DNA of 64,000 nt from Confluentibacter flavum (lineage in GTDB: Bacteria; Bacteroidota; Bacteroidia; Flavobacteriales; Flavobacteriaceae): contig NZ_PJEO01000016.1 of the NCBI RefSeq assembly GCF_002843175.1, positions 124,001 through 188,000 on the forward strand, read 5' to 3'. Below are positions 36,231 to 64,000 of the stretch, in pieces (position 1 is the stretch's first letter; the number at the start of each line of letters is the position of its first letter). Below the pieces are notes generated by a model. It saw only the letters and a list, made by a program, of their open reading frames with translations. It was not told where the DNA came from and ran no database searches. A program made the position numbers and the translations under genes.

Positions 36231-36270
36231 ATCTTTATTTATAATAAGTTGAATTTTAAGCCTCTAAATA

Positions 36271-36301: not shown

Positions 36302-36312
36302 GACTATGTTAA
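36295..36312. promoter_or_regulatory. Inverted repeat, probable LysR operator in the hut intergenic region
   Basis: TTAACA-N6-TGTTAA is a perfect 6+6 inverted repeat overlapping the hutH -33 element. Position and form suit a LysR-type regulator controlling hutH and its own gene. Binding itself is inferred. Confidence 0.5.
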
Positions 36313-36328
36313 CACAATATTAATAACC

Positions 36329-38427: not shown

Positions 38428-38437
38428 TCAGCCCCAA

Positions 38438-39427
38438 ATGAAAATACTATATGCCATTCAAGGTACCGGTAACGGACATTTAAGTAGAGCGCGCGACATC
38501 ATTCCTATTCTCCAAAAAAAAGGTGTTGTATTGGATATTCTTATCAGTGGCACTCAGGCCGATATTAATCTGCCTTATCCCATAAGCTATCAATTAAAAG
38601 GATTGAGTTTCATTTTTGGCAAAAAAGGCGGTGTAGATGTTTGGAAAACCTATTTTAAAGCTAAAACCATGCGTCTTCATAAAGAAATAATGAGTCTTCC
38701 TGTTGAGAATTACGATTTAATTATAAATGATTTTGAACCTGTATCGGCTTGGGCCTGTAAATTAAAAAAAATACCATGTGTTAGCTTAAGTCATCAATCT
38801 GCCGTATTATCACCTGAAGCTCCAAAACCCAAAAAGAAAGACCCATTAGGAAAACTCATTCTTAAAAAATACGCGCCAACAACCAAACAATATGGATTTC
38901 ATTTTAAGGCTTATGAAGATACCATATTCACGCCCGTTATTAGGCAAGATATTAGAGGTGCTAATTGTACAACGGGCGACCATTATACGGTGTATTTGCC
39001 TTCTTATGATGATGAAAAAATATTGAGCATATTATCTAAGATTAAGGATGTTACTTGGGAGGTATTTTCAAAACACAATAAAAAAATAGTTTCAGATAAA
39101 AATATCACGGTACAGCCTATTACCAATGAAGCTTTTATAACTAGTATGGCGACCAGCAAAGGCGTTCTTTGTGGTGCTGGCTTTGAAACGCCTGCCGAAG
39201 CCCTTTATATGAAAAAGAAATTGTTAGTCATCCCTATGAAAGGACAATATGAACAACAATGTAATGCCGCAGCTTTAAAAGATATGGGCGTACCCGTTAT
39301 AAAATCCTTTAAAAAGAAATACCTTAAAAATATTAAAGATTGGATAGATAGTGATACAATTATTGAGGTTAACTACCCCGATATTACAGAACATATTATA
39401 GATAAGATATTAGAAGAAAATCTATAG
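38438..39427 (+). CDS. MurG/UGT-like glycosyltransferase
   Basis: A 329-residue GT-B-fold protein. The N-terminus YAIQGTGNGHLSRARDI matches the GxGxGHxxR-type loop of MurG/UGT enzymes, and the C-terminal block GVLCGAGFETPAEALYMKK with PMKGQYEQQCNA is the usual sugar-nucleotide site. It is soluble or peripheral. It follows the metallophosphatase by 10 bases, a pair found together in flavobacteria. Acceptor and sugar are unknown. Confidence 0.82.
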   Translation: MKILYAIQGTGNGHLSRARDIIPILQKKGVVLDILISGTQADINLPYPISYQLKGLSFIFGKKGGVDVWKTYFKAKTMRLHKEIMSLPVENYDLIINDFEPVSAWACKLKKIPCVSLSHQSAVLSPEAPKPKKKDPLGKLILKKYAPTTKQYGFHFKAYEDTIFTPVIRQDIRGANCTTGDHYTVYLPSYDDEKILSILSKIKDVTWEVFSKHNKKIVSDKNITVQPITNEAFITSMATSKGVLCGAGFETPAEALYMKKKLLVIPMKGQYEQQCNAAALKDMGVPVIKSFKKKYLKNIKDWIDSDTIIEVNYPDITEHIIDKILEENL

Positions 39428-39526
39428 TTCATGTTATTCAATTAATCTAATTAATTCCAAATACGTTATCGGTTTGATTGATTTGCAACAAGCAAATTGA
39501 ATTGAGAACTTTTTCAAAAAAAATTT

Positions 39527-40900: not shown

Positions 40901-41253
40901 AACCTGAAACGTTTTTACAATATCAAAAATGATCTTGCTATAATCAAGTAATTTTATTTTTAATTCTACAATCCTATACGTTTATAAATCAAAAGAAAAT
41001 AAGACTTCATTTTAAATGGTCAATAAAATACGTCTGTAAACCATAATCATATCCATAATGCTTATGGGTTGGTTCAAAATAATAGCCTCATAACATTATT
41101 TCCATATTATCTATTCTAAAGCATGTTGGTATTTGCAATAAACCTTCCTAATCAACCCAGAATAGACACAATTAAACGAATAACCTCCTTAAACAGAATA
41201 TCTTAACATTAAGATTTCTAAATTTGATTACTTATTTATCCAATTTAAATATC
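40901..41253. other. Intergenic stretch without a recognised gene
   Basis: AT-rich spacer between the beta-glucosidase and the giant secreted protein. A TTG at 41224 opens the downstream frame 30 bases before the preferred ATG. I see no RNA gene, terminator stem or clear promoter. Confidence 0.4.
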
Positions 41254-44200: not shown

Positions 44201-46602
44201 ATTTTGTAGAAGATACGTTCACGGTAAGCATTATCAATTCTTCATTAATTCTTGCCAGGGTCAATGCTGGTGGTGCCGCAGTTTCAGCTACGGATGGTGG
44301 GGCCAATTGGGAACAGAATAATGTCGCTGGGGCAACATCAGGACCCAGTTATTCGGTTAATACTGGGACCATTTATAATGGCGGATTATTAAATATAAAC
44401 CGTCATAGTTCCATTCCTGACTATATAGACGAATCAACATACAATGCCATTTTTGCCTACGAACGCTATGACGTTACCGCAAGCCCTGAAATGGAATTTA
44501 CATTCGTGTTACAAAATGGTGACTATCAGGTTAATTTGTATATGGGCAACAGTTTTGTAGGGACTTCAGAAATAGGTGACCGTGTTTTTGATATTGAAAT
44601 AGAAGGAGTGATCGTTGAAGACAACATGGATCTTATAGCCCGTTTTGGCCATCAGTCAGGCGGCATGGTAACCTATCCAGTGACCGTGTCTGGTGGTGTG
44701 CTTAACATCCAGTTTTTGCATGAGGTGGAAAACCCATTATTAAACGCCATAGAAATAATGGCTGCCCCTCCACAATATCCTCCTTTATCGGTAAATCCAA
44801 TAGCAAACCAAACAAATCTAACGGGAGATGTTATTAGTACTTTGGGCGTTTCCGCCTCTGGTGGAAACCCTAATAATAATTTCACCTATAGCATTGACGG
44901 GCAGCCTCTAGGGATAAATATTGAACCCACCAATGGATTAATTTATGGAACCATCGATCAAACGGCTTCCAACGGGGGCACAAATAATGATGGTGTACAT
45001 GGTGTTACCGTTACTGTAGAAAAGGTTGGATCGACTTCGGTTACCACAAATTTTAGCTGGACCGTTAATGATTTGGCGTGGTTTGACAAAAATGAAAATG
45101 AAAATTATACGGCTCGCCACGAGTGCTCTTTTGTACAGGCAGGTGATAAGTTTTATTTGCTTGGGGGTAGGGAAAACTCAAAAACCTTAGATGTTTACAA
45201 TTACACTTCAAATAGCTGGAACTCTCTTGTGGATTCAGCACCTATGGAGTTCAATCATTTTCAGGCCACCGAATACCAAGGACTTATATGGGTGATAGGC
45301 GCCTTTCAAACAAACTCATTCCCCAATGAAACTCCTGCCGATTTTATATGGGCCTTCGATCCTGTAGCTCAGCAATGGATTCAAGGTCCAGAAATACCTT
45401 CCGGTAGAAGAAGAGGATCTGCGGGACTGGTTGTCCATAATGATAAATTCTATATTGTTGGTGGCAATACCATTGGCCATAACGGAGGCTATGTCCCTTG
45501 GTTCGACGAGTATGATCCTGTGTTAGGTACCTGGACAACGCTGACAAATGCACCAAGATCCCGCGACCATTTTCATGCCGTAGTGATTAACAATAAACTT
45601 TACGCGGCATCAGGACGACTCTCTGGTGGAGATGGGGGCACATTCGCTCCAGTAATCCCAGAAGTAGATGTTTATGATTTTTCTACGAATAGCTGGAGCT
45701 CGCTTCCTTCAGATCAAAATATTCCCACCCCTAGAGCCGGGGCTATTGTAGCGAATTTTAACAACAAGCTTGTCATTGCTGGCGGGGAAGTTTCTACAAA
45801 TGTAAATGCGCTTGATATTACCGAAATATATGACCCTTTAGACCAATCTTGGTCCACAGGGGCAAGCCTCATTCATCCAAGGCATGGCACGCAGGGAATC
45901 GTTTCCGGAAACGGTATCTTTGTAGTAGCAGGCTCCCCTGTTATGGGTGGCGGAAAGCAAAAGAATATGGAGTTTTATGGAAGTGATAGTCCAACGGGGA
46001 TACCTTTGGATGCTAGTGAATTAATGGGTCCCACCACGGTTGATTTTAGCGTACAAAATAGCCAAGACATAACATTGGACTTAGAAAATGGAAATACGGG
46101 AATCTTTATCCGTTCGGTTGAGATAAACGGGCATGATGACGATGATTTTGTTATCCAATCTGGAAATTTAAATAATGTGCTCTTAAAATCTAATTCCTCC
46201 AAAATAATCTCTGTTGATTTTATTGGTGCTGGTACAGAAAAAAATGCCATACTAACTATTGACTACGGCGCTAATGCTTCATTGGATATTTCGTTAAGTT
46301 ATGATTCTACACTATCATCGCCTGATGAGAAAGATAATATATCTAATGTATTTACTATATATCCAAATCCATCAAGTGAATATGTTTATGTTGAAATAAA
46401 ATCTTCATCCATTGATGTTACCGATTTCTTGTTGTTTGATATCACTGGTAGATTGATTAAAAAAATAAAAAATGACAATTCTGAACAGTCAACATTCAAA
46501 AAGCAAATAGATGTTAGAGGTTTACAATCGGGGCTATATACCTTATATATACTTTCTAAAGGAAGTGTTGTTCATAAAGCAAGATTGGTAATAAACAACT
46601 AA
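41254..46602 (+). CDS. Giant secreted kelch/malectin protein with T9SS sorting domain
   Basis: A 1782-residue exported protein from the ATG at 41254. Order of parts: signal peptide (ending NAFAQ), a beta-propeller-like region resembling sugar dehydrogenases (to about 570; LMYGPDNRLYVAEYTGA), Asp-rich calcium repeats (DSDGYSNQDEEDNGTE; DDFDGIPDALDPFQLGDP), a concanavalin-like stretch, a malectin-type carbohydrate-binding domain (LARVNAGGAAVSATDGG, about 1000-1160), an Ig-like domain, kelch repeats (about 1280-1560), and a C-terminal type A sorting domain (FTIYPNPSSEYVYVEIKS) that sends it through type IX secretion. GC looks higher than in its neighbours. It may bind or act on a polysaccharide. 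Confidence 0.85.
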   Translation: MVPQIKIFCNFIYFIFILLSYNAFAQSWSQSILTFSGTGNVNGGVTSLMYGPDNRLYVAEYTGAIKILTIQRNSPINYVATNVEILDGIRTMPDHNDDGTLYSSLNRETLGLTVVGTPTNPVIYVTSSDFRIGAGEGGGNGDVNLDTNSGVITRFSWNGSAWNVVDIVRGLPRSEENHATNGLEFVTINGTDYLIVAQGGHTNGGSPSTNFVYSCEYALSGAILAVNLTALETMPILDDNGRAYIYDLPTLDDPTRPNIHADGSPASEDPDDPNYSPLDINDPWGGNDGLNQAILVPGGPVQILSPGYRNAYDLVVTESGALYVTDNGANGGWGGLPMNEGGGSVTNDYNPAEPGSSDSLLYGEMVNNLDHLQLVTTNLQAYAFGTLPETYYGGHPNPTRANPVGAGLYTADGINNVFRTLKYDPDGSTPGSTSNPNEALPVNWPPLPVSEANTVEGDWRGPGMINPDGPNDDPVVTWGTNTNGIDEYTASNFGGVMQGNLLAGTHNGLIRRVQLNANGTLASGGLTSNFLSGMGGNALGITCNSDFDIFPGTVWAGTLNGKIVVFEPTDFLNCLDPSDPLYDANADYDSDGYSNQDEEDNGTEICNGGSQPDDWDKVMGGQLISDLNDPDDDFDGIPDALDPFQLGDPTVEGSDAFTIPILNDFFNDQQNLGGIYGLGLTGLMNNGDTGANWLLWLDRKDDPNDPNPNDILGGAPGLMTSQMTSGTALGTSNNQEKGYQYGVQIQNDSGIITVSGGMVGFNGPLTLYENLSAPSGELGFFIGDGTQSNYIKFVVTTTGFVALQEIEDIPQSPITYNLPQANRPTSGIKFFFEIDPSIGQVTLKFQIDEGSLTTLGTIVAQGSILQALQSSSTDLAVGLIGASNEDGVELEGTWDFLNVTAEKPYMVQNIPNLQRESGAPDDMFDLDDYFEDNNGTANLTYSVALNTNPNILASISNNLLTITYPSELQTADITIRASDLNGYFVEDTFTVSIINSSLILARVNAGGAAVSATDGGANWEQNNVAGATSGPSYSVNTGTIYNGGLLNINRHSSIPDYIDESTYNAIFAYERYDVTASPEMEFTFVLQNGDYQVNLYMGNSFVGTSEIGDRVFDIEIEGVIVEDNMDLIARFGHQSGGMVTYPVTVSGGVLNIQFLHEVENPLLNAIEIMAAPPQYPPLSVNPIANQTNLTGDVISTLGVSASGGNPNNNFTYSIDGQPLGINIEPTNGLIYGTIDQTASNGGTNNDGVHGVTVTVEKVGSTSVTTNFSWTVNDLAWFDKNENENYTARHECSFVQAGDKFYLLGGRENSKTLDVYNYTSNSWNSLVDSAPMEFNHFQATEYQGLIWVIGAFQTNSFPNETPADFIWAFDPVAQQWIQGPEIPSGRRRGSAGLVVHNDKFYIVGGNTIGHNGGYVPWFDEYDPVLGTWTTLTNAPRSRDHFHAVVINNKLYAASGRLSGGDGGTFAPVIPEVDVYDFSTNSWSSLPSDQNIPTPRAGAIVANFNNKLVIAGGEVSTNVNALDITEIYDPLDQSWSTGASLIHPRHGTQGIVSGNGIFVVAGSPVMGGGKQKNMEFYGSDSPTGIPLDASELMGPTTVDFSVQNSQDITLDLENGNTGIFIRSVEINGHDDDDFVIQSGNLNNVLLKSNSSKIISVDFIGAGTEKNAILTIDYGANASLDISLSYDSTLSSPDEKDNISNVFTIYPNPSSEYVYVEIKSSSIDVTDFLLFDITGRLIKKIKNDNSEQSTFKKQIDVRGLQSGLYTLYILSKGSVVHKARLVINN

Positions 46603-46670
46603 ATGCTGTTTTTATAAAGTGCTATTGGCAATTATTAATAACCCAACTATTACATTTTTTTTGAAATAAA

Positions 46671-46696
46671 AAAGCCTCGCAGAAATGCGAGGCTTT
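46671..46696 (-). terminator. Bidirectional terminator beside the tRNA fragment
   Basis: A perfect 10-bp stem (AAAGCCTCGC with GCGAGGCTTT). It lies downstream of the tRNA fragment on the minus strand, where the terminator of the original tRNA gene would be, and also follows the giant gene on the plus strand. Confidence 0.85.
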
Positions 46697-46710
46697 ACAA
46701 TCTCTAAAAG

Positions 46711-46752
46711 TGGTCCCACCTGGGCTCGAACCAGGGACCACCTGATTATGAG
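46711..46752 (-). repeat. 3' fragment of a CAT-anticodon tRNA: probable attachment site at the left end of the island
   Basis: Read on the minus strand, this is tRNA positions 32-73: anticodon loop CTCATAA (anticodon CAT, Met or lysidine-Ile), stem TCAGG, T arm CCTGG-TTCGAGC-CCAGG, acceptor TGGGACC and discriminator A. The sequence before it (GACGG) cannot pair with TCAGG, so the 5' half is missing. A broken tRNA 3' end beside an integrase is the standard scar of site-specific integration: the intact gene should lie at the far end of the element. Confidence 0.85.
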
Positions 46753-46833
46753 CCGTCAATCAGACAGAAAAATCTATACAATAAAAATTTTAACATATTG
46801 ATTTTCAACATTTTAATAAATTTTGATTTCAAC

Positions 46834-46880
46834 TGATATCAATTGATATCAAAGAAATGTTTGCAAATTGTTTGCAAATT
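46834..46880. repeat. Two pairs of tandem direct repeats upstream of the integrase
   Basis: TGATATCAA occurs at 46834-46842 and 46844-46852, and GTTTGCAAATT occurs twice back to back at 46859-46869 and 46870-46880. Paired short repeats between the attachment site and the integrase gene are typical arm-type recombinase binding sites; they could also be operators for integrase expression. Confidence 0.5.
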
Positions 46881-49135: not shown

Positions 49136-49354
49136 TCATTCAAAAAAGGAAATTACTTCCACTCCGATTGCCTCTGAAATTTTCAACAATGTCAGTGAAG
49201 TAACATTCTGTCTCCCATTTTCAATACTTGATAAATTGGGCTTCTCCATTTTAATTATGGAGCACAAATCTAACTGACTAAAACCTTTCGCCTTTCTCAG
49301 TTTAGCGATATTTGCTCCAATTTTTTTAAGGAATATTTTCTCTTCTTCAGTCAT
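49136..49354 (-). CDS. XRE-family helix-turn-helix regulator
   Basis: A 72-residue DNA-binding protein from the ATG at 49354 (an earlier ATG at 49405 falls inside a palindrome and would add 17 odd residues). The helix-turn-helix is GANIAKLRKAKGFSQLDLCSIIKMEKPNLSSIENGRQN (in two parts), close to phage-type repressors. It diverges from the HEPN gene, with a 28-bp palindrome between them, so it probably represses itself and that gene. Confidence 0.88.
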   Translation of the reverse strand: MTEEEKIFLKKIGANIAKLRKAKGFSQLDLCSIIKMEKPNLSSIENGRQNVTSLTLLKISEAIGVEVISFFE

Positions 49355-49385
49355 ATAAAGTTCAATTTCTATAAAAAAAGAACAC

Positions 49386-49413
49386 AAAAGGTTATGATAT
49401 ATCATAACCTTTT
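49386..49413. promoter_or_regulatory. 28-bp perfect palindrome, probable operator
   Basis: AAAAGGTTATGATA followed by its exact complement, centred at 49399/49400. It lies between the XRE gene and the HEPN gene and abuts the plus-strand -7 element TAAATTTG (49416-49423), so a bound repressor would block that promoter. Confidence 0.6.
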
Positions 49414-49472: not shown

Positions 49473-50348
49473 ATGAAAGCAAATACACAAACAAAATTCT
49501 ATTTAGAGTCAAAACTCATAGGTTTATTGAAAACAATATTACCATTACATTCTGTATATGTCATCGGTGTGAATAAGGAGAAAAAAAATAGAGCTGTTTT
49601 TTTATCCCCTGTATATGCCGATAAACAAAAAACGGTCATTTATACTTTGTTGATTATAGGTGACAAACCCATGTCCAAGGGGTTGAATGAATTTATGGAC
49701 GGTATCTATAACCAAATGCAGCAAAGTTGTAAGGTCTATGTCATTTATTACACATTGGCAAATGCGATCAAGCGATTGGATTATGGCAATAATTTTTTGT
49801 TAAAGACCATTTTCCAAACGCCCTGTATATATAGGGCGGATGACACCCTTTTAAGATTTAAAAAGTATCAGATATTGATCCACCCAAAGGTCTATGAAGA
49901 CATCCAAAAAATATGGGACGCTAGAATGAAACGTGCAGCTTATCTACTGTCCATTTTGGATAGCATTGAACCCACAGAAGATGTCACTTCCAGACTGATG
50001 ACCATGCACTATGCCATTGAACAAATATGTTTAGGACTGTTGTATGCATTTTGGGAATTTAAGCCACAGCACTACGCCCTTACTTATATGTTGCACCTTT
50101 GCAGCCATTTTAGCAATTTGCCACAGACCATATTCCCAAAAGAGACTTATGGACTGCACCGGATGCACTATATCCTATGCAATGCCCACCACATCATGCG
50201 CTTTAAGGCAGAAAATGAATTCTCGAATAGGGACTCGGACAAAGCCTTTAACCGCTGTGAACGGTTTTTCGAAGAAGCTATGGACATCGGAGACAAACAC
50301 CTAGAGGAGCTTAAAAAAATCCATTGCCATACCAACAAATTAGATTAA
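49473..50348 (+). CDS. HEPN domain protein
   Basis: A 291-residue protein with an N-terminal nucleotidyltransferase-like region (about 1-125; SVYVIGVNKEKKNRAVFLSP) and a C-terminal HEPN-like helical domain (about 150-285). An R-x4-H motif is visible in SRLMTMHYAIEQ, where HEPN RNases have their catalytic pair, though it is not proven to be the active one. Such proteins are common cargo of Bacteroidota conjugative elements and often act as RNA-cutting toxins. An XRE gene lies divergently upstream and a 117-residue gene follows 18 bases later. Confidence 0.75.
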   Translation: MKANTQTKFYLESKLIGLLKTILPLHSVYVIGVNKEKKNRAVFLSPVYADKQKTVIYTLLIIGDKPMSKGLNEFMDGIYNQMQQSCKVYVIYYTLANAIKRLDYGNNFLLKTIFQTPCIYRADDTLLRFKKYQILIHPKVYEDIQKIWDARMKRAAYLLSILDSIEPTEDVTSRLMTMHYAIEQICLGLLYAFWEFKPQHYALTYMLHLCSHFSNLPQTIFPKETYGLHRMHYILCNAHHIMRFKAENEFSNRDSDKAFNRCERFFEEAMDIGDKHLEELKKIHCHTNKLD

Positions 50349-50366: not shown

Positions 50367-50720
50367 ATGAAAAATAAAAAAAAGAAATTAAAAGCTATAA
50401 AAAAGTTGATGGGTCAATTTTCTGGTGTACAAAAAGAAACCTATGGAAAAAGGATTAGAAAAACCATAAACTTTGAAGTAGAAGATAATGAGGATATCAC
50501 AAGCTCAATTTCTGCTCTTTTAGAAGTATGCTATTATGCATTAGATGGTAATGGTGGTTTTGTATCACCAAAACATGAAAACAAAACCCAAATATCAAGC
50601 GTCACAAAAGTGTTAGAAATAATCATAGACCTATTACCTCACGACCAAATGTTTTGTCTGCAAAGGATAGAACAGCTTCTGTCTGAACAACAAAACGTCA
50701 AACCAAACAAACAAGCTTAA
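50367..50720 (+). CDS. Small hypothetical protein downstream of the HEPN gene
   Basis: 117 residues, not recognised. The N-terminus is very basic (MKNKKKKLKAIKKLMG), the middle acidic (NFEVEDNEDITSS), and the rest is predicted helical. No signal peptide or membrane segment. The 18-base gap to the HEPN gene suggests co-transcription; a partner or antitoxin role is possible but unsupported. Confidence 0.6.
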   Translation: MKNKKKKLKAIKKLMGQFSGVQKETYGKRIRKTINFEVEDNEDITSSISALLEVCYYALDGNGGFVSPKHENKTQISSVTKVLEIIIDLLPHDQMFCLQRIEQLLSEQQNVKPNKQA

Positions 50721-53142: not shown

Positions 53143-53661
53143 TCAGAGGTTTATATCAAGTATCATATTCAAAAATGAAGTCGGTTGAAGAAAATAGTTT
53201 GGGTTTTCCTCTAATTTTTCCTTTATCAAAATCAATCCTCCATTGGTATAAGATTCCATTGTTTTGATTAAAGATTTTACTGCTTCATCTTCTTCCAATT
53301 CCCCTTTTTCAAGTGCAATTAAGTCTATGTCCGTTTCTGCTACAAGTGCAATAAACATATTTTCTTGTAAGTTGGTAAAGTCTTGTCGTGTTGTCACAGT
53401 TGATTTGCTGCCCCAATACTGAATATGATGACTAAAATCCGTTTTCTTTTCCCCATCAGCGATTGGAGCAAATTCATTATTGTAAAGTCCTAAAAAGAAA
53501 GCATACATATATAGTTCATAGTTAGTGCTGAAATGCTTACCAAAGTTAATTTTCTTCTCACCTTCTGCCCCAAATTTTTGAGAAAGTGATATAAATAAGT
53601 CTTTATGAACCTCACTGTATTTTGGGATTTTAGTTTTCCATTTTTCAAATAGATTCTTCAT
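53143..53661 (-). CDS. Uncharacterised protein at the 3' end of the phosphorothioation-like operon
   Basis: 172 residues, no domain recognised with confidence. It is mixed helical, rich in aromatic residues near 45-60 (NYELYMYAFFLGLYNNEF), and lacks a signal peptide or membrane segment. It begins one base after the SMC-like gene, so it is surely co-translated. Position suggests a partner of the SMC-like ATPase; DndE-like was considered but no DndE motif is seen. Confidence 0.7.
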   Translation of the reverse strand: MKNLFEKWKTKIPKYSEVHKDLFISLSQKFGAEGEKKINFGKHFSTNYELYMYAFFLGLYNNEFAPIADGEKKTDFSHHIQYWGSKSTVTTRQDFTNLQENMFIALVAETDIDLIALEKGELEEDEAVKSLIKTMESYTNGGLILIKEKLEENPNYFLQPTSFLNMILDINL

Positions 53662-53662
53662 A

Positions 53663-55849
53663 TTATAATGAGTTTACTTCAGTATTAATAGTTGATAATT
53701 CTCTTTTATCAAATGGTCTTTCTAATTTGACCCAAAAAGCCTTATTCCGCTTTATAGAATTAAATTCTTCTTTGATAAATAGATCTTTAATTGTACCATC
53801 AGAATTTTTAATTGAACCAATGAAGTCTTTTAGGAGTATAATTTTTTGATTTGAAGTATCATTAATTAGATTTAAAAAATCTCCTGTCTTAGTTTCTCCA
53901 AAAGAAGAGGTTGGTGCATCAAATATCATTGGATAGGTTTCATCCCTAACTTCGTTAGCAAGTTCTGAAATTGCCAGCAAAATAGAAATATTCATCGAAG
54001 TTCGGACAGCCGTACCTGGAACAAAGTATCTGCCGCCTGACTCTAAAAGTGAAACTTCAATTTTTATTCTATCGCCACCAATTTTCTTTTTTGAAAATTT
54101 AATCTGTCCTGTAAATGCTTCAACATTAATTTGATTTAAATATTTATTTGATTTACTCTCTAGCTTGTCAATAAATTCTTCAAATTTCTTTTCTTTAGTT
54201 TGGATAAATATTGTTTCAATATGTCGCATGAGATCTCTTGTTTTTAACAAGAATGAACTGGCAGAATTTAGATCAATCTTATCTTTTTCATCTTGTTTTA
54301 ACTTGATTTGGCTTTGAATATCTTGAAACTTTGTATTCAGTTTATAATAGTCTTCATTAATAGACTTCAAGTCTTCTTGCCAAAAGGTATAATTCTTAAA
54401 TACATTTAACAATTCAGATTCATTAGCGATTGTTGAATTACCTAATATTCGATTTCTATCCTCCTTTTCTTTTTCTAAAAGTTCCTCAAGTTCCCTCTTT
54501 TCTTTTTCTCGTTCATTAATCAACTCAAATTTGTCTTTAATGTCAGATTTAATTGATCTTAGGTTTTTAAGATTGTCTTCATGACTAACGCTCAAATTCT
54601 CAAGCCTATTGGTATAATCAAACTTAAATAATGGCTCATTTTTTTCAGATTCACTTTCTTTAACAACTTGACTTTCCAAATAGGATTTTAGCCTTTCCAT
54701 CATAAAATTATAGGCTTTAATTTCTTCTTCCGAGCCTTTTGCGTGGGCAGGTCTATTACAAACTTTACAAATTTTCTCTTTGAGCATTTCCTCCATATGC
54801 GATTTTGATGGTACACCAATTGGAAGAGGAACGGCATTATTTAATAATTCTGCCTTGGCTTTCCTCTCTCCTTCTTTAAAGCCTAAATGTTTGTCATATT
54901 CAGATTGTAACTCTCTATGCATTATACTGTGGGAAGACACTTTATCCGCAAATTTTTTATGGAAAGGTTCGAAATTCACTAAAATCCAATTTTCATCAAA
55001 AAGTGATGTAGTGAAATTGTAGTCAATTATTCTATCTGATAATGAAATTTTATTTTCAATATTTTCTATTCTTGTATTTATTGTTTGAAGTATTTGGGCA
55101 TTATTAGCATACTTTTCGGCTTCTTTAATATTTTTTTCTAATTTGTTTTTTTCTTCTTCAGTACTATTAAGATGAATCTTTAATCTGTCTCTTTCTCTAT
55201 GGAGTTGCATTATTTCTCCTTCTAATAAATCATAAGCTCTTTGATTTTGTTGATTTTGCCTTGTCGATTGCTCAACAGCTTTTTCAGCCTTATCTCTTAA
55301 GAATAAACCTTTTTCAGTATATTTTTCATAGTGTCTAGCATCTGAAAAGAGGTTTATTAAATTGGCTAAAGCTTCGTCATTGTCAAAAATATTAAGTTTA
55401 GTTTCACCTTTGAACATTGAATACTTCCGAATTTGAAATGGAAAAACTCTATCAAGTAAATTTTGTGCGTTTTTCGGTATTCTTTCTCCTGTATTTTTAT
55501 CTTTTTCTTCACCCTCGAAAACAACAACTGAAGTTTCAACATCATTATTCAATTTTTTTTTAACTGTAAAACTTCTTGTAATCTTAGATTCAGTATCATA
55601 TTGTTCAACAATCATTGAGACGCTTACCTTAAAGCTATCACCTGAACTTATTTCATTAAGTTTTTTAGCTGATATTAAATTGATTACATCAATAAAATTA
55701 CCATTAAATAACCATTCAACCGCTTCAAAAAACTTAGTTTTCCCTTCATTATTTTCACCTAAAATAATGTTTAGGCCATCCTCAAACGGGAATGAATTTA
55801 CACTATGGTAACAAAGATAATTCTCTATTTGTATCTTTTTAATAATCAT
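53663..55849 (-). CDS. Rad50/DndD-like SMC-type ATPase
   Basis: A 728-residue ATPase with head domains at both ends and a coiled-coil middle. Walker A is GENNEGKTK (31-39), the zinc hook is CKVC at 361-364 between the two coil arms (about 190-350 and 375-560), and the C-terminal half has the signature region (LLESGGRYFVPGTAVRTSM) and Walker B YPMIFDAPTSSFGE near 645. This is the architecture of Rad50, SbcC and DndD. DndD-type proteins work in DNA phosphorothioation, while SspH-like roles belong to restriction; I cannot separate these. The start overlaps the 76-residue gene by 4 bases. Confidence 0.87.
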   Translation of the reverse strand: MIIKKIQIENYLCYHSVNSFPFEDGLNIILGENNEGKTKFFEAVEWLFNGNFIDVINLISAKKLNEISSGDSFKVSVSMIVEQYDTESKITRSFTVKKKLNNDVETSVVVFEGEEKDKNTGERIPKNAQNLLDRVFPFQIRKYSMFKGETKLNIFDNDEALANLINLFSDARHYEKYTEKGLFLRDKAEKAVEQSTRQNQQNQRAYDLLEGEIMQLHRERDRLKIHLNSTEEEKNKLEKNIKEAEKYANNAQILQTINTRIENIENKISLSDRIIDYNFTTSLFDENWILVNFEPFHKKFADKVSSHSIMHRELQSEYDKHLGFKEGERKAKAELLNNAVPLPIGVPSKSHMEEMLKEKICKVCNRPAHAKGSEEEIKAYNFMMERLKSYLESQVVKESESEKNEPLFKFDYTNRLENLSVSHEDNLKNLRSIKSDIKDKFELINEREKEKRELEELLEKEKEDRNRILGNSTIANESELLNVFKNYTFWQEDLKSINEDYYKLNTKFQDIQSQIKLKQDEKDKIDLNSASSFLLKTRDLMRHIETIFIQTKEKKFEEFIDKLESKSNKYLNQINVEAFTGQIKFSKKKIGGDRIKIEVSLLESGGRYFVPGTAVRTSMNISILLAISELANEVRDETYPMIFDAPTSSFGETKTGDFLNLINDTSNQKIILLKDFIGSIKNSDGTIKDLFIKEEFNSIKRNKAFWVKLERPFDKRELSTINTEVNSL

Positions 55850-56076
55850 ATTGCAGTATTTAAAAACTGAAGAACACTGTTTCTTAATTCATTATCTGAG
55901 GCAGTGGGCGATTTTTCTAAGCCTTCTACGATCAATGCAATTGCCTTAACAATAGGTTTATCTGAGTTTAATGCTTCCCTTACCGTATTAGGGAGTTCTT
56001 CTTTTTTAAGTTCATACTTGGATTCAAGTAACTCGTGGGTTAAAAAACTTTTGAGTATATCGTCTTTTCTTGCCAT
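55846..56076 (-). CDS. Small protein of the phosphorothioation-like operon
   Basis: 76 residues, acidic and helical (ARKDDILKSFLTHELLES; KPIVKAIALIVEGLEKS), no recognised domain. It sits 10 bases after the helicase gene and overlaps the SMC-like gene start by 4 bases (ATGA). Tight overlap and small size suggest a subunit or bridge between helicase and ATPase. Confidence 0.72.
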   Translation of the reverse strand: MARKDDILKSFLTHELLESKYELKKEELPNTVREALNSDKPIVKAIALIVEGLEKSPTASDNELRNSVLQFLNTAI

Positions 56077-56086
56077 AAGAATATTA

Positions 56087-58294
56087 TTATAAATCGTTTA
56101 GGTTCAAATTATAGTAGTCCAAAATATTTTTAAGCGTTTCGTAAGTATCGGTTTTATTCATTGCTAAATTAGCAAAGTCGACTACTCGTTCAAGTTCTTT
56201 CCCTACTAAACCTCTTTCCATTTCAAACGTATTTTCTTCACCCCCGACTTCGGGAACTACTACTAAATCGTGAATAGTCGCATGAATTTTATCTTTGTGC
56301 AATCGCAAAACCCTACCTCTTCTTTGGATAAATTGCCTTGGATTTCCAGTACTAGCACAAAATATGGCTAGTTCGGAACGAGGTACGTCAACACCTTCAT
56401 CCAAACATTTCATTGAGGTCAAAACGTGAATTTTTCCATCTTCATAGTTCTTTAAGATATCCTCCCGGTTTTCTGAATTAGCTGTAAATTGTTTCACCAT
56501 CACGGAATCATCTGTATTGCTAACCGCTTTTGTGTATTCATTTATCAATCTATTTTCATCATCCGTTTCAACACTAAAATCTGTTTCGTCAAAATTTGCT
56601 TCTATGCCCTCAGGAACATATATCAATGTATATTTCAGATTCTTGCGTTTATCAAATTCACTTCTTAGAATCGCTTTGAATGCTTCTAATTTATTGGCTG
56701 CTTTGTGAATGATTCGTTTTCTTTCTAGGAGTTTCTTTTCAATTTCAGGAGTACTTCTGAAATTGCCAGTTTCTTTATCAAATAAGCCCATTCGTAACAG
56801 TTGGAGAGAAAGTTCCTTGTATTTTTCCATCTCTTGGTCTGTTAGCTTTACAATGTGAGGATGATAGGTGTATTTACACAACCAACCAATATTCAACGCT
56901 TCTTCCATTGAATACGAAACAATATAAGGCGGCTCATCATTGAAAAACTCTTGAATGGCTTGATTACCTGCCTCATCAAATTTTCTGTGTGGCGTTGCAG
57001 ATAATCCAATTCGTTTTTCAAGTTGGATATTTGGCAACAATCTTAAATGTCCTTGCGAACCTAAGTTGTGCGTTTCATCAGCAATTAAAATAGTGTCTTT
57101 AGGAAGTTGCGTAAAGTAGCTTTGAAACTTAGGTCTTGGTAATGAAGCATAAGTAACAATGACGATATACGAAGTGTCAATCAGTTTTGAAGCGGTATTG
57201 AAAAACGCAAGATTCTTATCCCAATTCTCTTTTGAACTGACCGTAATAATGTTTTTAAAATTGAATTTGGCACATTCATTTTTCCATTGTTCAACCAACG
57301 CTGTTGTTGGTACTGTAATAATCGCTCTATAAATTCCTGTTTTTTTGTATTCGTTCAGCAGGCAGTTGAGGGAAGTAATCGTTTTACCTGTTCCTGTTGC
57401 CATTGCAAACATTCCCTTGTAATTATTGGCTACCCAACTGTTGTAAGCATTAATCTGATATTCTCTTGGGCCTTCTGAATATGGGAATTTTGGAGTTCGT
57501 CTAATAATCTCAATTTCACTAAAAAGCTTGGTAATTGTTTTTTTGAGCTTGGGGTTTGAAATCAAACTCTGCTTTTTCCTTAGTAGTTGTTCTTCCTGCA
57601 CTAACAATTCATTGATATCCTTTTTACCAAATCTGTCTTTTAGTACAACTTCAATGTCACTAACGGAGATATATTCAACATCTTCATCTTTTTCAGTAAA
57701 ATAGTCGTCAATTAATTTAAGTTGCTTTCTGATAAGCTTATTTGACCTGCCATTTTCCCAACTCAAAAAAGCTTCAAGTTGTTCTATGTTTTCAGAAAGT
57801 CCATAATAGGTAAAATTGCAAGATGCTTGATAGCCGACAGCATCTTGACCATCACTAAAAACCCCTGATTTATAATGTGCTATTCCCTTTCCGTTTTTGG
57901 GCTTGACAACTTTTATCTCAATTCTCTTTTCAGAAATGAGATAAGCCAAACATTCAAAAAAGTGTGTGTCATATTCATCAAGAACTCTACCTAGCGAAAC
58001 AATATCGGTTAAATCAAACACTCTTATTTCATTGGGATTTTCTTCTACTCGGGAAATTGCTTCTTTATCCTTTGCCGAAAGCAAATGATTGATAACCATT
58101 TTCATTTTGCCACCTTTGCTGATAAAAGTTGCGAAACCAACAGAAAGCAGATTGATAGCGGAAGAACTGAAATAACCCAACAACAAACTAAACTCATTGC
58201 TATTGGCTAATCCGTCCAAATAGAATTGCAAGGGTTCGTTTTCTGAACCAGTTTTGTAATCTCTATCTAATGACCAATCGCAATCTTTAAGCAT
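56087..58294 (-). CDS. PLD-nuclease/DEAD-box helicase fusion
   Basis: A 735-residue protein. Residues 1-190 form a phospholipase-D-like nuclease domain with one HxK motif (AHYKSGVFSDGQD, about 137-149). The rest is a superfamily 2 helicase: Walker A ATGTGKT near 300, DETH near 405 (ILIADETHNLGS), GLSATPHR, and motif VI RQFIQRRGRVLRLH. A Dnd/Ssp restriction component or a type III-like helicase has this form. It overlaps the cysteine desulfurase gene by 8 bases. Activity of the single-HKD nuclease would need a dimer. Confidence 0.9.
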   Translation of the reverse strand: MLKDCDWSLDRDYKTGSENEPLQFYLDGLANSNEFSLLLGYFSSSAINLLSVGFATFISKGGKMKMVINHLLSAKDKEAISRVEENPNEIRVFDLTDIVSLGRVLDEYDTHFFECLAYLISEKRIEIKVVKPKNGKGIAHYKSGVFSDGQDAVGYQASCNFTYYGLSENIEQLEAFLSWENGRSNKLIRKQLKLIDDYFTEKDEDVEYISVSDIEVVLKDRFGKKDINELLVQEEQLLRKKQSLISNPKLKKTITKLFSEIEIIRRTPKFPYSEGPREYQINAYNSWVANNYKGMFAMATGTGKTITSLNCLLNEYKKTGIYRAIITVPTTALVEQWKNECAKFNFKNIITVSSKENWDKNLAFFNTASKLIDTSYIVIVTYASLPRPKFQSYFTQLPKDTILIADETHNLGSQGHLRLLPNIQLEKRIGLSATPHRKFDEAGNQAIQEFFNDEPPYIVSYSMEEALNIGWLCKYTYHPHIVKLTDQEMEKYKELSLQLLRMGLFDKETGNFRSTPEIEKKLLERKRIIHKAANKLEAFKAILRSEFDKRKNLKYTLIYVPEGIEANFDETDFSVETDDENRLINEYTKAVSNTDDSVMVKQFTANSENREDILKNYEDGKIHVLTSMKCLDEGVDVPRSELAIFCASTGNPRQFIQRRGRVLRLHKDKIHATIHDLVVVPEVGGEENTFEMERGLVGKELERVVDFANLAMNKTDTYETLKNILDYYNLNLNDL

Positions 58295-59429
58295 AATTAA
58301 AATTTGGTTGTGTAAGTTCTTTTATTTTTTGAATCACAGTTTCGACATCTTCTATTGTGTTGAATTTACCTAGTGAAAATCGTAATGATGCAAAAGCATC
58401 ATCATCACTTAATCCCATAGCTTTCAAAACGTGTGAGGGCTCAACAACTGCTGATGAACAAGCAGAGCCATTGGAGATTGCAATATTTTTCATTCTGCCA
58501 ATCAAAACATTGGCATCCTGTCCTTTGAAACAAATGTTGGCCGTGTTGTAAATTCTATTTTGTGAAACACTATTTAGAGAAGTGTTAGGTAGCTTTAGTA
58601 ATTCTGCTTCCAAACGATCTCTCAATTCAGAAATAGTATTTTGATTCTGTGTCATTTCTTGATTGGCTAATTCACAAGCTTTTGACAAAGCAATAATTCC
58701 AGGAACATTTAATGTTCCACTTCTTAAACCTTGTTCGTGACCACCTCCGTGAATTTGTGAGGTGAGTTTTGTTTTATTTCTTACATACAAGGCTCCGATT
58801 CCTTTTGGAGCATACATTTTATGGCCACTAAAGCAAAGTAAATCAATGCCTAAATCATTAACATCAATCTCTAATTTACCGACCGCTTGTGTGGCATCTG
58901 TCATAAATAAAGCCCCCATGTCGTGAGCTATGGTTGCAATTTCTTTAATGGGTTGAATTACTCCAGTTTCGTTATTGACATACATTACAGAAACTAAAAT
59001 AGTATCGGGTCGGATGGCTTTTTGAAGTTCTGCTAAATCAATCAAACCACTTTGTAAAACTGACAAAAAAGTAACTTCAAAACCTTTTCGTTTTAAGTCT
59101 TTGCAAGTGTCTAAAACCGCTTTGTGTTCAGTTGAAACCGTGATGATGTGTTTTCCTTTATTAGAATAGCTTTCTGCAACTCCTTTAATGGCAATATTGC
59201 TAGCTTCGGTTGCTCCACTTGTAAAAATAAGTTCATTTGAATCTGCATTGATAAAATCAGCTATTTGTTCACGAGCTTGTTTTACTTTTTCATTAATGCT
59301 TTGACCAAAATGGTGGGTGCTGCTTGGATTGGCGAAGTTGTCTTGTAAAAAAGGCAACATTGCATCAAGCACCCTTGGGTCGATGGGGGTGGTGGAGTTG
59401 TTGTCGAGAAATTTAACTTTAGAGTTCAA
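58287..59429 (-). CDS. Cysteine desulfurase (DndA/SspA-like)
   Basis: PLP enzyme that takes sulfur from cysteine as a persulfide. The 380-residue product has the PLP lysine K204 (FSGHKMYAPKG) and the sulfur-carrying C324 (NGSACSSAVVEPSHV). By sequence it could be a general IscS/NifS. Its place inside this operon, overlapping the helicase gene by 8 bases and near a PAPS-reductase-like gene, points to sulfur donation for DNA modification. No IscU, IscA or other cluster gene is adjacent. Confidence 0.92.
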   Translation of the reverse strand: MNSKVKFLDNNSTTPIDPRVLDAMLPFLQDNFANPSSTHHFGQSINEKVKQAREQIADFINADSNELIFTSGATEASNIAIKGVAESYSNKGKHIITVSTEHKAVLDTCKDLKRKGFEVTFLSVLQSGLIDLAELQKAIRPDTILVSVMYVNNETGVIQPIKEIATIAHDMGALFMTDATQAVGKLEIDVNDLGIDLLCFSGHKMYAPKGIGALYVRNKTKLTSQIHGGGHEQGLRSGTLNVPGIIALSKACELANQEMTQNQNTISELRDRLEAELLKLPNTSLNSVSQNRIYNTANICFKGQDANVLIGRMKNIAISNGSACSSAVVEPSHVLKAMGLSDDDAFASLRFSLGKFNTIEDVETVIQKIKELTQPNFNYA

Positions 59430-59440
59430 GGCTTCAATTA

Positions 59441-60376
59441 TTAACTAGCTATTAAATCATTCCATTTATAAATTCTTTGGGCTTCTATTAATCTATTTGT
59501 CCTTTTTATTTTTTCTAATAGAGTTTCAGATTGATTATTTGACTCAATCTGAAAAACTGAATAATATTGTTTTATGATTTCAAACAATTCTTTGCATTTG
59601 GTTTTATTAACTTCAAAATATTCAAAATAAGATTGAATGTTTTGAAGCTCTAGCTTTTGAAGTTTATTTATCAAGTCTTTTAGTTTGAAGGCAATCTCCT
59701 TTTTAGACTTTATAAAAGCACCATTCACTTTTTCATTATGAAATTTTACTAAGCGTTCTTTGAGCAAGGCAACTTCAATAGCATATTGGGAATAAAGTTC
59801 GCTTAAAACTCTGTTCAGTTGACTTTTATTAAAATCATCATCTAACCAGTAAATTAGAATTAAAAAATCTACGGTATCTTTTATTTGACCTATTTGTTGA
59901 AACTCAAAATACCCTGAAAAAAAATCTTTAGCTGGATAATCGTCGGTATAGAAAAAAACTTTTTTCTCATCAAGCCTGCTCAGATATAAGGCATATGCGG
60001 TGGAGCATAATTCACCATTTATTTTCTTGGTGTATCCAACCTGATTTTTAATTTGCTCATAGTACTCATTTCCTAGTTCGCTTATCATTTCTGCACTTCT
60101 ATTCTTTTTACCTCTAAAAAAACTAAGCTTTTGATCAATTTCCTTTCTTATTCCTCCAATCCTACTTGAATCAGAAAACTTGGATAATCCACTTTTTAAT
60201 CTATCATTGACATTTACTTGAATCTCCTTAAAAACAAGTTCATCAATAAGAATTTCAATAGGTTTTGACTTCTTTAATTCTAATGATTTAATCTTTTTTA
60301 ATAAGAAATCGTCTTCATCAATATGAATGAGATTAATCACAGTACAGGCATCCAATAAACAACATACATTTCCCAT
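59441..60376 (-). CDS. PIN-like domain protein in the phosphorothioation-like operon
   Basis: 311 residues. The N-terminus CLLDACTVINLIHI (D9) is the first PIN-fold motif, E122 (INGELCSTAYALYLSRL) fits the middle acid, and D145 or D146 (VFFYTDDYPAKDFF) the third. This suggests a metal-dependent RNase or DNase of residues 1-165, with a coiled helical extension to 311. It lies between the ATPase and the cysteine desulfurase with gaps of 4 and 11 bases. PIN proteins are not described components of Dnd or Ssp that I know, so the role is open. Confidence 0.68.
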   Translation of the reverse strand: MGNVCCLLDACTVINLIHIDEDDFLLKKIKSLELKKSKPIEILIDELVFKEIQVNVNDRLKSGLSKFSDSSRIGGIRKEIDQKLSFFRGKKNRSAEMISELGNEYYEQIKNQVGYTKKINGELCSTAYALYLSRLDEKKVFFYTDDYPAKDFFSGYFEFQQIGQIKDTVDFLILIYWLDDDFNKSQLNRVLSELYSQYAIEVALLKERLVKFHNEKVNGAFIKSKKEIAFKLKDLINKLQKLELQNIQSYFEYFEVNKTKCKELFEIIKQYYSVFQIESNNQSETLLEKIKRTNRLIEAQRIYKWNDLIAS

Positions 60377-60380
60377 AACA

Positions 60381-61493
60381 TTAACCTTTATCCCAAATTA
60401 TATCATCCTTATATTCTTCATAAACTTCCATATTTATAGGGCATTTATTGTCCATATCTGAAAGCTCAATTAATAAAGATAATGATTCGTTAAAGCGTCT
60501 TAATGAAACACTACCTAGCTCTATAATTAAACTATTAATTACACTTTCTTCAAATGGAAAATAAGGGTTTTGATCATTACCTTCTCTAAAGATTGCTATC
60601 AACTCTCTCAAATATTCCTTAAATATATCAGGATTTGGAAAATCAAAGCTGATTCTTTCTTTTATCCTTGATTTAACGCTTTCATAAACGTATTGTCCTA
60701 AATCTTCCACAGAAATTAATGCTGATTGAGTAAGATTCAAAAACAGTAGCAAATTGTTGGGTACGGTATCTAAAATCTCTCTGATGAAATTATTAGTCTT
60801 GTCAATGTTCGAATTGTTTAATACTGCAATGTCTTCAAACTCATCAATCCAAAGAATTACACACGAAAACTTTTGTTTGTTATAGGTTAAACACGAAAAC
60901 AATCCCGCTAAAATTGAACTGTAATCGGTATCGTCTTTTAATGAACGTAATATACCAGATGCATTTAGTGATTTCAGCTCAGTGGCATTCATATTCCCGT
61001 ACAAATACTTTTTAATGTCTAAGTGCTGTATGTCAGAATTAAAAACAGCCTTCAAAACACTTTGGATATGAAGGTTTGAGCCGATTGAATCAATATAAGC
61101 ATTCAAATCACCAACAATATCAGAAAAAGTGTTTCTTAACTCTTCAATGTTAAGTTTGTCAATTATAGAAATGTAAATGCTGTAAATAGGTTCTTTACCT
61201 TTGGGTAATGATATAACCGCTGAATAAGGAATAGCCTTTCCAGCTTTATCTGCAAGTGCTTGTAAAACATCTTTCTTGTTGAAAAATCTTGCAGCGTGTG
61301 TTTTACCACTTCCATATTCCCCCCAATTTAAAACCAAAGTAGAATTAGGTATTCTAATACTACGTTCAATTCTTTTTTCAAATTTCTCTTTTACATCTTT
61401 GAACCCTGCCCAAACTAATTCGTCAGGGTTTGTTGCAGGTGTTAAACGAAATGGATTCGTTTTTAACTTGTATGTTGCTTTGAAGTCTGCCAT
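60381..61493 (-). CDS. P-loop ATPase of the phosphorothioation-like operon
   Basis: A 370-residue AAA-type ATPase: Walker A GEYGSGKTH (58-66) and Walker B CVILWIDEFEDI (209-220), with a helical C-terminal part (FPFEESVINSLIIELGSVSLRRFNE in two pieces). It resembles ORC/Cdc6-like and DUF2791-type ATPases in defence islands, and SspC is also a P-loop ATPase. It starts 6 bases after the 551-residue gene's stop and ends 4 bases before the PIN gene. Partner or DNA target not known. Confidence 0.8.
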   Translation of the reverse strand: MADFKATYKLKTNPFRLTPATNPDELVWAGFKDVKEKFEKRIERSIRIPNSTLVLNWGEYGSGKTHAARFFNKKDVLQALADKAGKAIPYSAVISLPKGKEPIYSIYISIIDKLNIEELRNTFSDIVGDLNAYIDSIGSNLHIQSVLKAVFNSDIQHLDIKKYLYGNMNATELKSLNASGILRSLKDDTDYSSILAGLFSCLTYNKQKFSCVILWIDEFEDIAVLNNSNIDKTNNFIREILDTVPNNLLLFLNLTQSALISVEDLGQYVYESVKSRIKERISFDFPNPDIFKEYLRELIAIFREGNDQNPYFPFEESVINSLIIELGSVSLRRFNESLSLLIELSDMDNKCPINMEVYEEYKDDIIWDKG

Positions 61494-61499
61494 TATTTA

Positions 61500-63155
61500 T
61501 TATTTTATTTGGATGTAGCCGTCTTGATACTGTTCTTGATATTTGAATATGAATTTATCTTGTTCTTTCTCAGACAACTTATTTAGTATAAAGCTATAAC
61601 CCACTTTTATTTTATCGTCCATATAAAGTTTATATTTGGTGTAGTTAGCTGCCTGTGAGGCTGTAACCCTATTTGGGGCGAGCGTTTTAAAAATTTCAAA
61701 ACTATTTTCAATGTGCTTATAAATTCGGTCCAATATTGACTTTATATCGTCCGGATTAGAAACAATATTGTTGTTAAAACAGTCATCAAAAAGATGAATC
61801 ATAAAATTGTCAAGAAATTTAGATGGTGATATTATTTTTTCAGTATTAATATCATTCCATATACATAAATGCTTAAATAAGTTATCGCCTATTTTTTCTA
61901 TATTATATTCATTTTTTGAATTATCAAAACTGATAATTCCAAAATCCAACATCCAATTTAACCTAGGCATAATTAAATGTTCCAAATACACTTCCGCTTT
62001 TTCCCATTTTCTAATTCTGTTTAAGATAATGTCAAGCTTACTCACTACCTTTCTATCTGAGTTATATGTTGGGCTTTTATATCCCTGAAAAGAGTATTGA
62101 TTTTGTTTTTTATATTCTTCCAAACTTTTAATTAACTTGGATTGAAACTCACTAACTATTTTTGAGTAGGTTGCTTTTCCTTCAATATAAATTAACTCCA
62201 ACAGATTGCTGAAATAGAAATAATCATATCTTAAAATACACTCTAAAAAATACATTTTGTCAAATGTGGTTAATTCAAAAATATTTGAAGATTTACTATA
62301 GTCATTTTTTAATGCTTGATATACTTTCAAAGATTTACCAACATAGAGTATGTTATTTATTTTGTTTAACAATTCAATGTCAATTGCCATTTCTAGGTAT
62401 GGCTTAGCTGAAATCCCATTTTTAGTTTCTTTAATTAACCCTTTGTTAAATTCACTATTATCTAAAACATCCTTATATTTTAAACAGAAAGTTTCAAATC
62501 TCTTATTGATATTACTAGTAGGAATCTGCTTATTTTCATCAAGGAAAAGGGATAAAATTTTGAAATAACCTAAGCGTCTAACTTTTGTATTTGTAGATAA
62601 AATTGGTAAAGACTTGTCATCTTTTATCGGCTGATTCTTGCGAAAAAAGATTGTATAAAATTCAGGGACGACAATTGAATCAATTTTTATTTTCACAATA
62701 TGTTTTGCAAATTCAACATCCCACCAGAACTTTTCAGAAATTTCTATTGAAAACATATAATTTCCTGCATCTGGACACATTGCATCACCATACTTTATAT
62801 CTGTATAATGGTTTTGAATAGCATTTTTTCCATATAAGTTGATTTGCTTAATTAATGAATACATTTCGTTGGTGATAGACTTACCTTCTGTCAAGTCTTC
62901 TCTCCATCCTAGGTATTCATAACCTTTAATTTCAAATGACGTAAATTCACTTATCTCGTCTAAAAGACGTTCGATTTTTGAAGTATCATCTAAAGTATTG
63001 TAGGAATAAAAGTCTTCATCAATTTCTTCTTCAAAATCATCTTTTATATCAAACGTAAAAGTATAATGATATTCACTAAACTCAAATATCAATTCGTTTT
63101 CGTGTATCATTGCTTGGTAGCAATTGTTTAAATATAAATTAAATACCTCTTTCAT
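61500..63155 (-). CDS. Large uncharacterised protein of the phosphorothioation-like operon
   Basis: 551 residues from the ATG at 63153-63155, one base after the upstream stop codon (a longer start at 63197 would run 41 bases into that gene and is less likely). No known motif was seen. It is Tyr-, Asn- and Lys-rich, mostly helical in the second half (e.g. SEFQSKLIKSLEEYKKQNQ), has no signal peptide, and begins with an acidic beta-rich part (IDEDFYSYNTLDD). It may be a large-subunit or DNA-specificity protein, but this is only a guess from place and size. Confidence 0.78.
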   Translation of the reverse strand: MKEVFNLYLNNCYQAMIHENELIFEFSEYHYTFTFDIKDDFEEEIDEDFYSYNTLDDTSKIERLLDEISEFTSFEIKGYEYLGWREDLTEGKSITNEMYSLIKQINLYGKNAIQNHYTDIKYGDAMCPDAGNYMFSIEISEKFWWDVEFAKHIVKIKIDSIVVPEFYTIFFRKNQPIKDDKSLPILSTNTKVRRLGYFKILSLFLDENKQIPTSNINKRFETFCLKYKDVLDNSEFNKGLIKETKNGISAKPYLEMAIDIELLNKINNILYVGKSLKVYQALKNDYSKSSNIFELTTFDKMYFLECILRYDYFYFSNLLELIYIEGKATYSKIVSEFQSKLIKSLEEYKKQNQYSFQGYKSPTYNSDRKVVSKLDIILNRIRKWEKAEVYLEHLIMPRLNWMLDFGIISFDNSKNEYNIEKIGDNLFKHLCIWNDINTEKIISPSKFLDNFMIHLFDDCFNNNIVSNPDDIKSILDRIYKHIENSFEIFKTLAPNRVTASQAANYTKYKLYMDDKIKVGYSFILNKLSEKEQDKFIFKYQEQYQDGYIQIK

Positions 63156-63156
63156 T

Positions 63157-64000
63157 TTATACAAAACAAGCCGCACAACCTTCTCCTTCGACATCATCCA
63201 AGATGTCCACTAGGTAAGGTGATTTGGCTTTTGATTTTTTTTCCATTCTTTTAATATACTCTTCTTTGATTTTCTCCATTCTTTCTGGTTGAATCAATTC
63301 TTCCAAGCTTTCAAATTGTCCCCAAGTGTAGCCGTCTTTCTCGTACTCCATAGCTTTCTTGTACAAATCAGGGTGTTGTTCGTACAACCAAACCCATTCA
63401 ATTTTTTGTTGAAAAAAGCAAAAGAAACATCCCGAACGACTTCTTGCGTATTCTCCTTTTTTTCCGTTAACCTCAAATTCAATTTTGTTGTAGTAGGCAG
63501 GAACACCTACACCGCTTTCTTCTAATATTTTAAAAATATCGTCTCGCACTAATACTTCATCATTTTCTAAAAGTGGAAATGTAGCTTCGGTTGCTAGAGG
63601 ATAATCCGTTGTTTTCAGAAAATCAAAAACCAAATGATTAAATGCTTTCACATTGGCATCCAATAAAATATTTAGCTTTTGGTCTAGTGTGAAACTTGTA
63701 TCCACTTTTCGATTAATTGTTTGAAAAGCTTTTTCTTGATTTTTGCCAAAGTCTATATTCTTGGACATTGCTAAAAGTTGCTCCATGTTTTGGTTGGCTA
63801 ACAATTTGGCAACAACATCTTGGCTCCAAATATTCTTGCGAAATGGAAATATGGATTGAATATTCTTTTTTGTAGAAATATAGCCTTCTCTTTCTTCATC
63901 ACCTCGAATTCCAACATAAGAAATCACCGGGTCAGAACCAACATAGTTTTCAAAAGGGTCTAGTTTCAGTTTTTTAGTGCACCAACGAGCATTGGAAGAA
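63157..64000 (-). CDS. PAPS-reductase family protein (DndC/SspD-like), 5' end outside the window
   Basis: The frame is open to the right edge, giving the last 280 residues. It reads ARWCTKKLKLDP and then VISYVGIRGDEEREGY, the conserved block of the ATP-pyrophosphatase/PAPS-reductase fold used by DndC and SspD. Cysteines sit in RWCT, SGCFFCFFQQ and the terminal GCAACFV, a likely iron-sulfur or sulfur-handling set. The N-terminal SGGKDS loop must lie beyond 64000. DndC-type enzymes activate the DNA backbone for sulfur insertion. The GTG at 63925-63927 is internal. Confidence 0.87.
   Translation of the reverse strand, partial: SSNARWCTKKLKLDPFENYVGSDPVISYVGIRGDEEREGYISTKKNIQSIFPFRKNIWSQDVVAKLLANQNMEQLLAMSKNIDFGKNQEKAFQTINRKVDTSFTLDQKLNILLDANVKAFNHLVFDFLKTTDYPLATEATFPLLENDEVLVRDDIFKILEESGVGVPAYYNKIEFEVNGKKGEYARSRSGCFFCFFQQKIEWVWLYEQHPDLYKKAMEYEKDGYTWGQFESLEELIQPERMEKIKEEYIKRMEKKSKAKSPYLVDILDDVEGEGCAACFV

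Follow-up and report, generated by a model that had tools for sequence, protein, structure and literature searches.

A 23.2-kb integrative element in the tRNA-Met(CAT) gene of Confluentibacter flavum carrying a predicted phosphorothioation operon

A 23.2-kb stretch of the Confluentibacter (Flavobacteriaceae) chromosome is, with a probability of roughly 0.96, an integrative element that was put into the 3′ half of a tRNA-Met(CAT) gene by tyrosine-recombinase site-specific recombination. Among tRNA islands it falls into class A (anticodon-centred), and its integrase is of the IntCTnDOT type. The window, that is, the whole stretch of DNA analysed here (64,000 nucleotides, C53:124001-188000), contains the left end of the island; contig C53 runs on to 221,710, and positions past the window are given as window-equivalent coordinates. 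In the proposed mechanism, the element would have targeted the only tRNA-Met(CAT) gene of its type in the chromosome, with strand exchange most likely taking place in the 7-nt anticodon loop CTCATAA. The element would have arrived with its own copy of tRNA positions 32-73, which restored a complete tRNA on the right-hand side (window-equivalent 69958-70032), and the host's own 3′ half, together with its terminator, would have been displaced to form the fragment at 46710-46752. No evidence against integration was found.

The left junction is marked by this displaced piece of the tRNA gene. Positions 46711-46752 of the window, read on the minus strand, give CTCATAATCAGGTGGTCCCTGGTTCGAGCCCAGGTGGGACCA, which corresponds to canonical positions 32-73 of tRNA-Met(CAT), up to the discriminator base, and one extra matching base at 46710 extends the match to an exact repeat of 43 bp. 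None of 100 shuffles gave a comparable match, and none is expected by chance. The 5′ half of the gene is missing here. CCTGA and TCAGG pair to form the anticodon stem of the intact copy; the corresponding bases beside the fragment are GACGG, which cannot pair with TCAGG, and the fragment therefore has no anticodon stem. The initial annotation had described positions 32-73 alone, preceded by sequence unfit for an anticodon stem and lying next to an integrase, and all three points are borne out, the gene for a 410-aa tyrosine recombinase starting 148 bp past the fragment. It had also named an intact tRNA gene at this position as a finding against its proposal, and ARAGORN detects no tRNA there. 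The stem-loop adjoining the fragment (Table 1) is probably the original tRNA terminator, kept on the chromosomal side. A low-threshold Rfam search near the fragment returned only sub-gathering matches, which were driven by terminator hairpins and were not accepted as small RNAs.

Table 1. Features of the island and its left junction, in window coordinates.
Feature	Position	Strand	Remarks
Stem-loop adjoining the fragment	46672..46697	-	AAAGCCTCGC..GCGAGGCTTT in the sequence itself; similar AAAAAAGCCTTGCAAATATGCAAGGCTT at the sister occupied locus (G003)
Displaced tRNA-Met(CAT) 3′ fragment, island left junction	46710..46752	-	43/43 identical to the intact gene, window-equivalent 69958-70000
Inner left end, core to arm-like repeat	46753..46858	.	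match to the tRNA lost immediately beyond position 32
Tandem 11-bp repeat GTTTGCAAATT/GTTTGCAAAT	46859..46879	+	second copy at window-equivalent 69890-69910
Tyrosine integrase P0001, 410 aa	46900..48132	+	Pfam Arm-DNA-bind_5, Phage_int_SAM_5, Phage_integrase
HTH_3 regulator, 89 aa, common to the sister island	49136..49405	-	Pfam; 88% identical in G003
291-aa protein, common to the sister island	49473..50348	+	63% identical in G003
117-aa protein of unknown family, common to the sister island	50367..50720	+	77% identical in G003, 102 aa
HipBST-like toxin-antitoxin set (cargo): HTH_3 72 aa, Couple_hipA 111 aa, HipA_C 312 aa	51396..52874	+	
HTH_17 protein, 58 aa	52937..53113	-	PF12728, E 4.3e-6
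Predicted Ssp/Pbe-type phosphorothioation operon, in-window part	53143..64000	-	PADLOC SspA, SspB, SspC, SspD, PbeA, weak PbeC

With up to 3 mismatches allowed, a genome-wide search finds the 43-bp sequence at two places and no more, C53:170710 and C53:193958, each time in + orientation. The second copy (C53:193958-194000) forms the 3′ portion of a complete tRNA-Met gene of 75 nt, which is located 5,958 bp past the window end and lies on the same strand as the fragment. The two copies are 23,248 bp apart on a single contig, with no N between them, and the GC content is 31.5% in the island against about 35% in either flank. From the fragment it had been foreseen that a complete CAT tRNA gene with the same 42 bases would lie to the right of the window. 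The search beyond 64000 located this gene in the foreseen orientation, and the opposite outcome, the lack of a second copy near by, did not occur. The combination by which class A tRNA islands are recognised is present: the fragment and the intact gene represent the same gene in the same orientation, with the 3′ fragment downstream.

An unoccupied site, for which PCR had been proposed, was supplied instead by comparison with a congener (G004). In this genome, homologues of the genes at window 37552-40900, with 89-93% identity, run up to 3606. The next feature is an intact tRNA-Met at 3654-3728, and beyond it come an epimerase gene, rbfA and further genes of the right flank, with no island. This arrangement indicates that the island interrupts an otherwise continuous chromosome. 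A 1792-aa ORF to the left of the fragment (41224-46602) lacks a counterpart in both G004 and G003; the left flank, too, is therefore variable. Confluentibacter sediminis DSL-48 (G003) carries a sister island, in which fragment and intact tRNA-Met are 18,970 bp apart, with the same end sequences and an integrase 85% identical to that described here. The two islands also have in common three genes of the left end (Table 1) and a right-end 348-aa protein (72% identical). In its middle the sister island differs, with a set of type I restriction-modification genes and additional PADLOC candidates.

A fragment of this kind could also be left by an older island at the same tRNA, in which case the boundaries would enclose more than one element. 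Tandem arrays are known at tRNA-Met, as in Sediminicola luteus (G138), where 24-nt and 43-nt fragments stand in series, and in G132 arm-like repeats flank the fragment on either side. In the present interval, however, a single integrase gene and a single fragment are present, the repeats of the two ends match one another as a pair, and the left-flank genes match the unoccupied site of G004. Furthermore, tRNA-Met pieces at 30001-46700 do not exceed chance (top score 11, a shuffled sequence reaching 10), which leaves an older island in that region without evidence. Accretion of several elements is consequently very improbable. In S. luteus itself, the serial tRNA-Met fragments (L051:6243 and 18769, and L060), cut in the T arm (24 nt) or at the anticodon loop, suggest tandem islands.

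The integrase displays the IntCTnDOT-type domain order of Arm-DNA-bind_5, SAM-like and catalytic domains, with Pfam matches at E-values of 1.9e-12 to 7e-19. The box I arginine is absent throughout the integrase clade, which has GMPF or GISF instead, and R243 is conserved in the alignment. Additionally, where box II usually has its first His, the whole clade has Tyr352. Relatives were searched for in 149 genomes of the family and in GTDB contigs and, apart from the 85% sister, are 48-76% identical. Every relative with a full upstream region has a tRNA 3′ half that is cut at the 5′ edge of the anticodon loop. The targets are tRNA-Met in Sediminicola, Cellulophaga and G104, tRNA-Ala(GGC) in Maribacter, Flagellimonas, Cellulophaga, G060, G128 and one MAG, and tRNA-Arg(TCT) in G084 and G132; the Ala boundary was checked against an intact gene 7,528 bp away in Flagellimonas. 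The target tracks the integrase tree, with Ala and Arg each forming one well-supported group, and the Met grouping is less certain because of two long branches.

This recurrence bears on a further explanation. Fragments of tRNA genes may also come from other rearrangements, and a partial gene would likewise result from a segmental duplication, or from the decay of a tRNA copy, that had nothing to do with the integrase. Such an origin is already contradicted, and its probability is negligible: next to integrases of this clade the same cut, at the first base of the anticodon loop, is seen again in Met, Ala and Arg genes, the two copies do not differ at any base, and a congener has the site unoccupied. 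A second, distant integrase clade (about 30% identical) has the same tRNA-Met cut position in G017 (L055, L056) and G132 (L082). In G024 (L057, L058), tRNA-Met copies lie 24 kb apart with a longer identity block of about 62 nt, pointing to a third kind of integration point in tRNA-Met.

With integration by a tyrosine recombinase as the preferred reading, the likely site of exchange can be described. Sequence identity between the intact gene and the fragment stops at canonical position 32, where the anticodon loop begins on its 5′ side. The loop of tRNA-Met, CTCATAA (7 nt), lies between the arms of the 7-bp inverted repeat CACCTGA/TCAGGTG, a form expected for a tyrosine-recombinase core with a 7-bp overlap, and the exact crossover base would most likely lie within this loop; both 43-bp copies are identical, so this locus alone does not narrow the point further. 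In S. luteus, the T-stem reads CTTGG/CCAAG in the displaced fragment and CATGG/CCATG in the intact tRNA-Met at the matching island end, a difference that would be expected if an island delivers its own 3′ half and that, with the ends on different contigs, serves as supporting evidence. The intact tRNA of that species has a T-stem base pair swapped relative to both of its fragments. Judged from the sequence of the two ends, the attP junction, roughly 260 bp long, would join the right-end core ...CTGATTATGAG to CCGTCAATCAGACAG..., and the repaired site would run from 46709 through the core to 70001.

Arm-type binding sites are known for arm-binding integrases, and putative sites of this type occur at both ends of the island. 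The sequence GTTTGCAAATTGTTTGCAAAT is present in the left tandem repeat and again 48 bp inside the right end (Table 1). The terminal 200-bp stretches have a 22-bp word in common, the longest shared word in 2000 shuffles being 15 bp. Paired tandem repeats of about 11 bp were found at both ends of all five clade elements sampled at both ends, at 108-120 bp from the core on the left and 47-48 bp on the right. A sixth element, in G017, with a distant integrase (31% identical), has a different repeat word at 119 and 50 bp; the word of this distant clade, TTGTAC.GATGTTGTAC, is present at both ends in G017.

The predicted Ssp/Pbe operon extends to window-equivalent 68349 and lies entirely within the island. 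About 23.2 kb therefore travels with it, which gives a size to the earlier proposal that fragment and intact gene would set the extent travelling with a phosphorothioation-like operon. All four ssp genes are present according to PADLOC (E-values: sspA 1.6e-168, sspB 3e-124, sspC 0, sspD 1.8e-93). The gene list comprises sspB (DUF4007), sspC, sspD, three uncharacterised genes (565, 370 and 311 aa), sspA and pbeA, as well as a weakly PbeC-like ATPase gene and a 172-aa gene that matches dnd_assoc_4 weakly, and the sspBCD...sspA-pbeA-pbeC-like operon is predicted to be complete. One apparent operon thus unites Ssp and PbeA/PbeC-like genes with the 565-, 370- and 311-aa uncharacterised ones, and among the 149 family genomes the 565-aa protein turned up nowhere else. 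The HipBST-like set adjoins the defence operon, and the 58-aa HTH_17 protein may be considered a candidate excision factor. The 291-aa protein has no Pfam, PHROG or NCBIfam match. The same holds for the 348-aa right-end protein (L003:7740-8786, window-equivalent 68740-69786), which is present in both Confluentibacter islands; as a general mark of tRNA junctions it was rejected, its distant homologues in G035, G058 and G014 having no tRNA within several kb.

The boundaries described above could also enclose an island that is now degraded and immobile, its defence genes having become ordinary chromosomal genes. Relaxase, conjugation and capsid genes were not recognised in the parts searched, and no close integrase relatives were found among viral contigs, both of which accord with a fixed island. 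On the other hand, the integrase is intact and its clade conserves K279, R355, H378 and Y387, both cores and both repeats are exact, and the existence of sister islands that carry different cargo suggests that the family is active. Fixation is thus the less likely state, although far more plausible than the alternatives weighed above, and the element may still be able to excise. Relaxase and type IV secretion genes, by which an integrative and conjugative element would be identified, are absent among the ORFs searched in the island. A phage origin is unsupported as well: in viral contigs, neither the integrase nor the 348-aa protein has a close relative.

Taken together, these comparisons lean towards a flavobacterial island family with a constant integration chassis, in which whole defence cargoes are swapped (Ssp/Pbe and HipBST versus a type I restriction set). 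Close integrase relatives would have moved between tRNA-Met, -Ala and -Arg genes while keeping the cut position and the arm geometry, each integrase lineage having its own repeat word (GTTTGCAAATT, GCGTGCAAATT or GAGTGCAAATT). Such a chassis would comprise, at the left end, an IntDOT-type integrase, an HTH regulator and two small proteins, at the right end the 348-aa protein, and at both ends tandem arm repeats of 11 bp whose distance from the anticodon-loop core is fixed. The exact ends show that a whole predicted sulfur-modification operon and a HipBST-like set travel jointly on one 23.2-kb element, and the sister island demonstrates that, within this genus, the same chassis also brings a different defence cargo to tRNA-Met. 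To our knowledge, integrase tools for flavobacteria are few, and the recurring cut and paired end repeats offer ready-made attB/attP pairs for testing flavobacterial integrases.

The island corresponds to arrangements described in other systems. In Islander, an island is defined by the pairing of an intact tDNA with a displaced fragment; 2083 of its 3919 islands belong to class A (PMC4383910). The present island agrees with that class in having the intact tDNA at one end and the 3′ fragment at the other in the same orientation, an integrase inside, a size within 2-200 kb, and a fragment that begins at the anticodon loop. The arrangement is well supported as one of this textbook kind, with no difference in kind; the host genus, cargo and sequences are new. 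IntCTnDOT enzymes form a subgroup of arm-binding tyrosine recombinases in which the first arginine of RKHRH is often missing and another arginine is found elsewhere (PMC8138268). The present integrase, also from Bacteroidota, shares with them Arm-DNA-bind_5 and, as in the CTnDOT integrase, the absence of the usual first catalytic arginine, but its clade has Tyr for the first box II His. Compared with CTnDOT and NBU1, the cargo and ends differ, and conjugation genes were not recognised here. The 10K genomic island of Riemerella anatipestifer, located in tRNA-Arg, has an integrase shown to integrate and excise (PMC6764341). It resembles the present island in its Flavobacteriia host, its flanking direct repeats and its tyrosine integrase, which there has an IntN1-like domain, whereas its 53-bp repeat, tRNA and cargo are different. 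Phosphorothioation genes on tRNA-associated islands have been reported in E. coli (PMC4373003), where the integrase is likewise the first gene and the tRNA site is variable; the genes carried here are Ssp-type rather than dnd/dpt, and the host belongs to Flavobacteriaceae.
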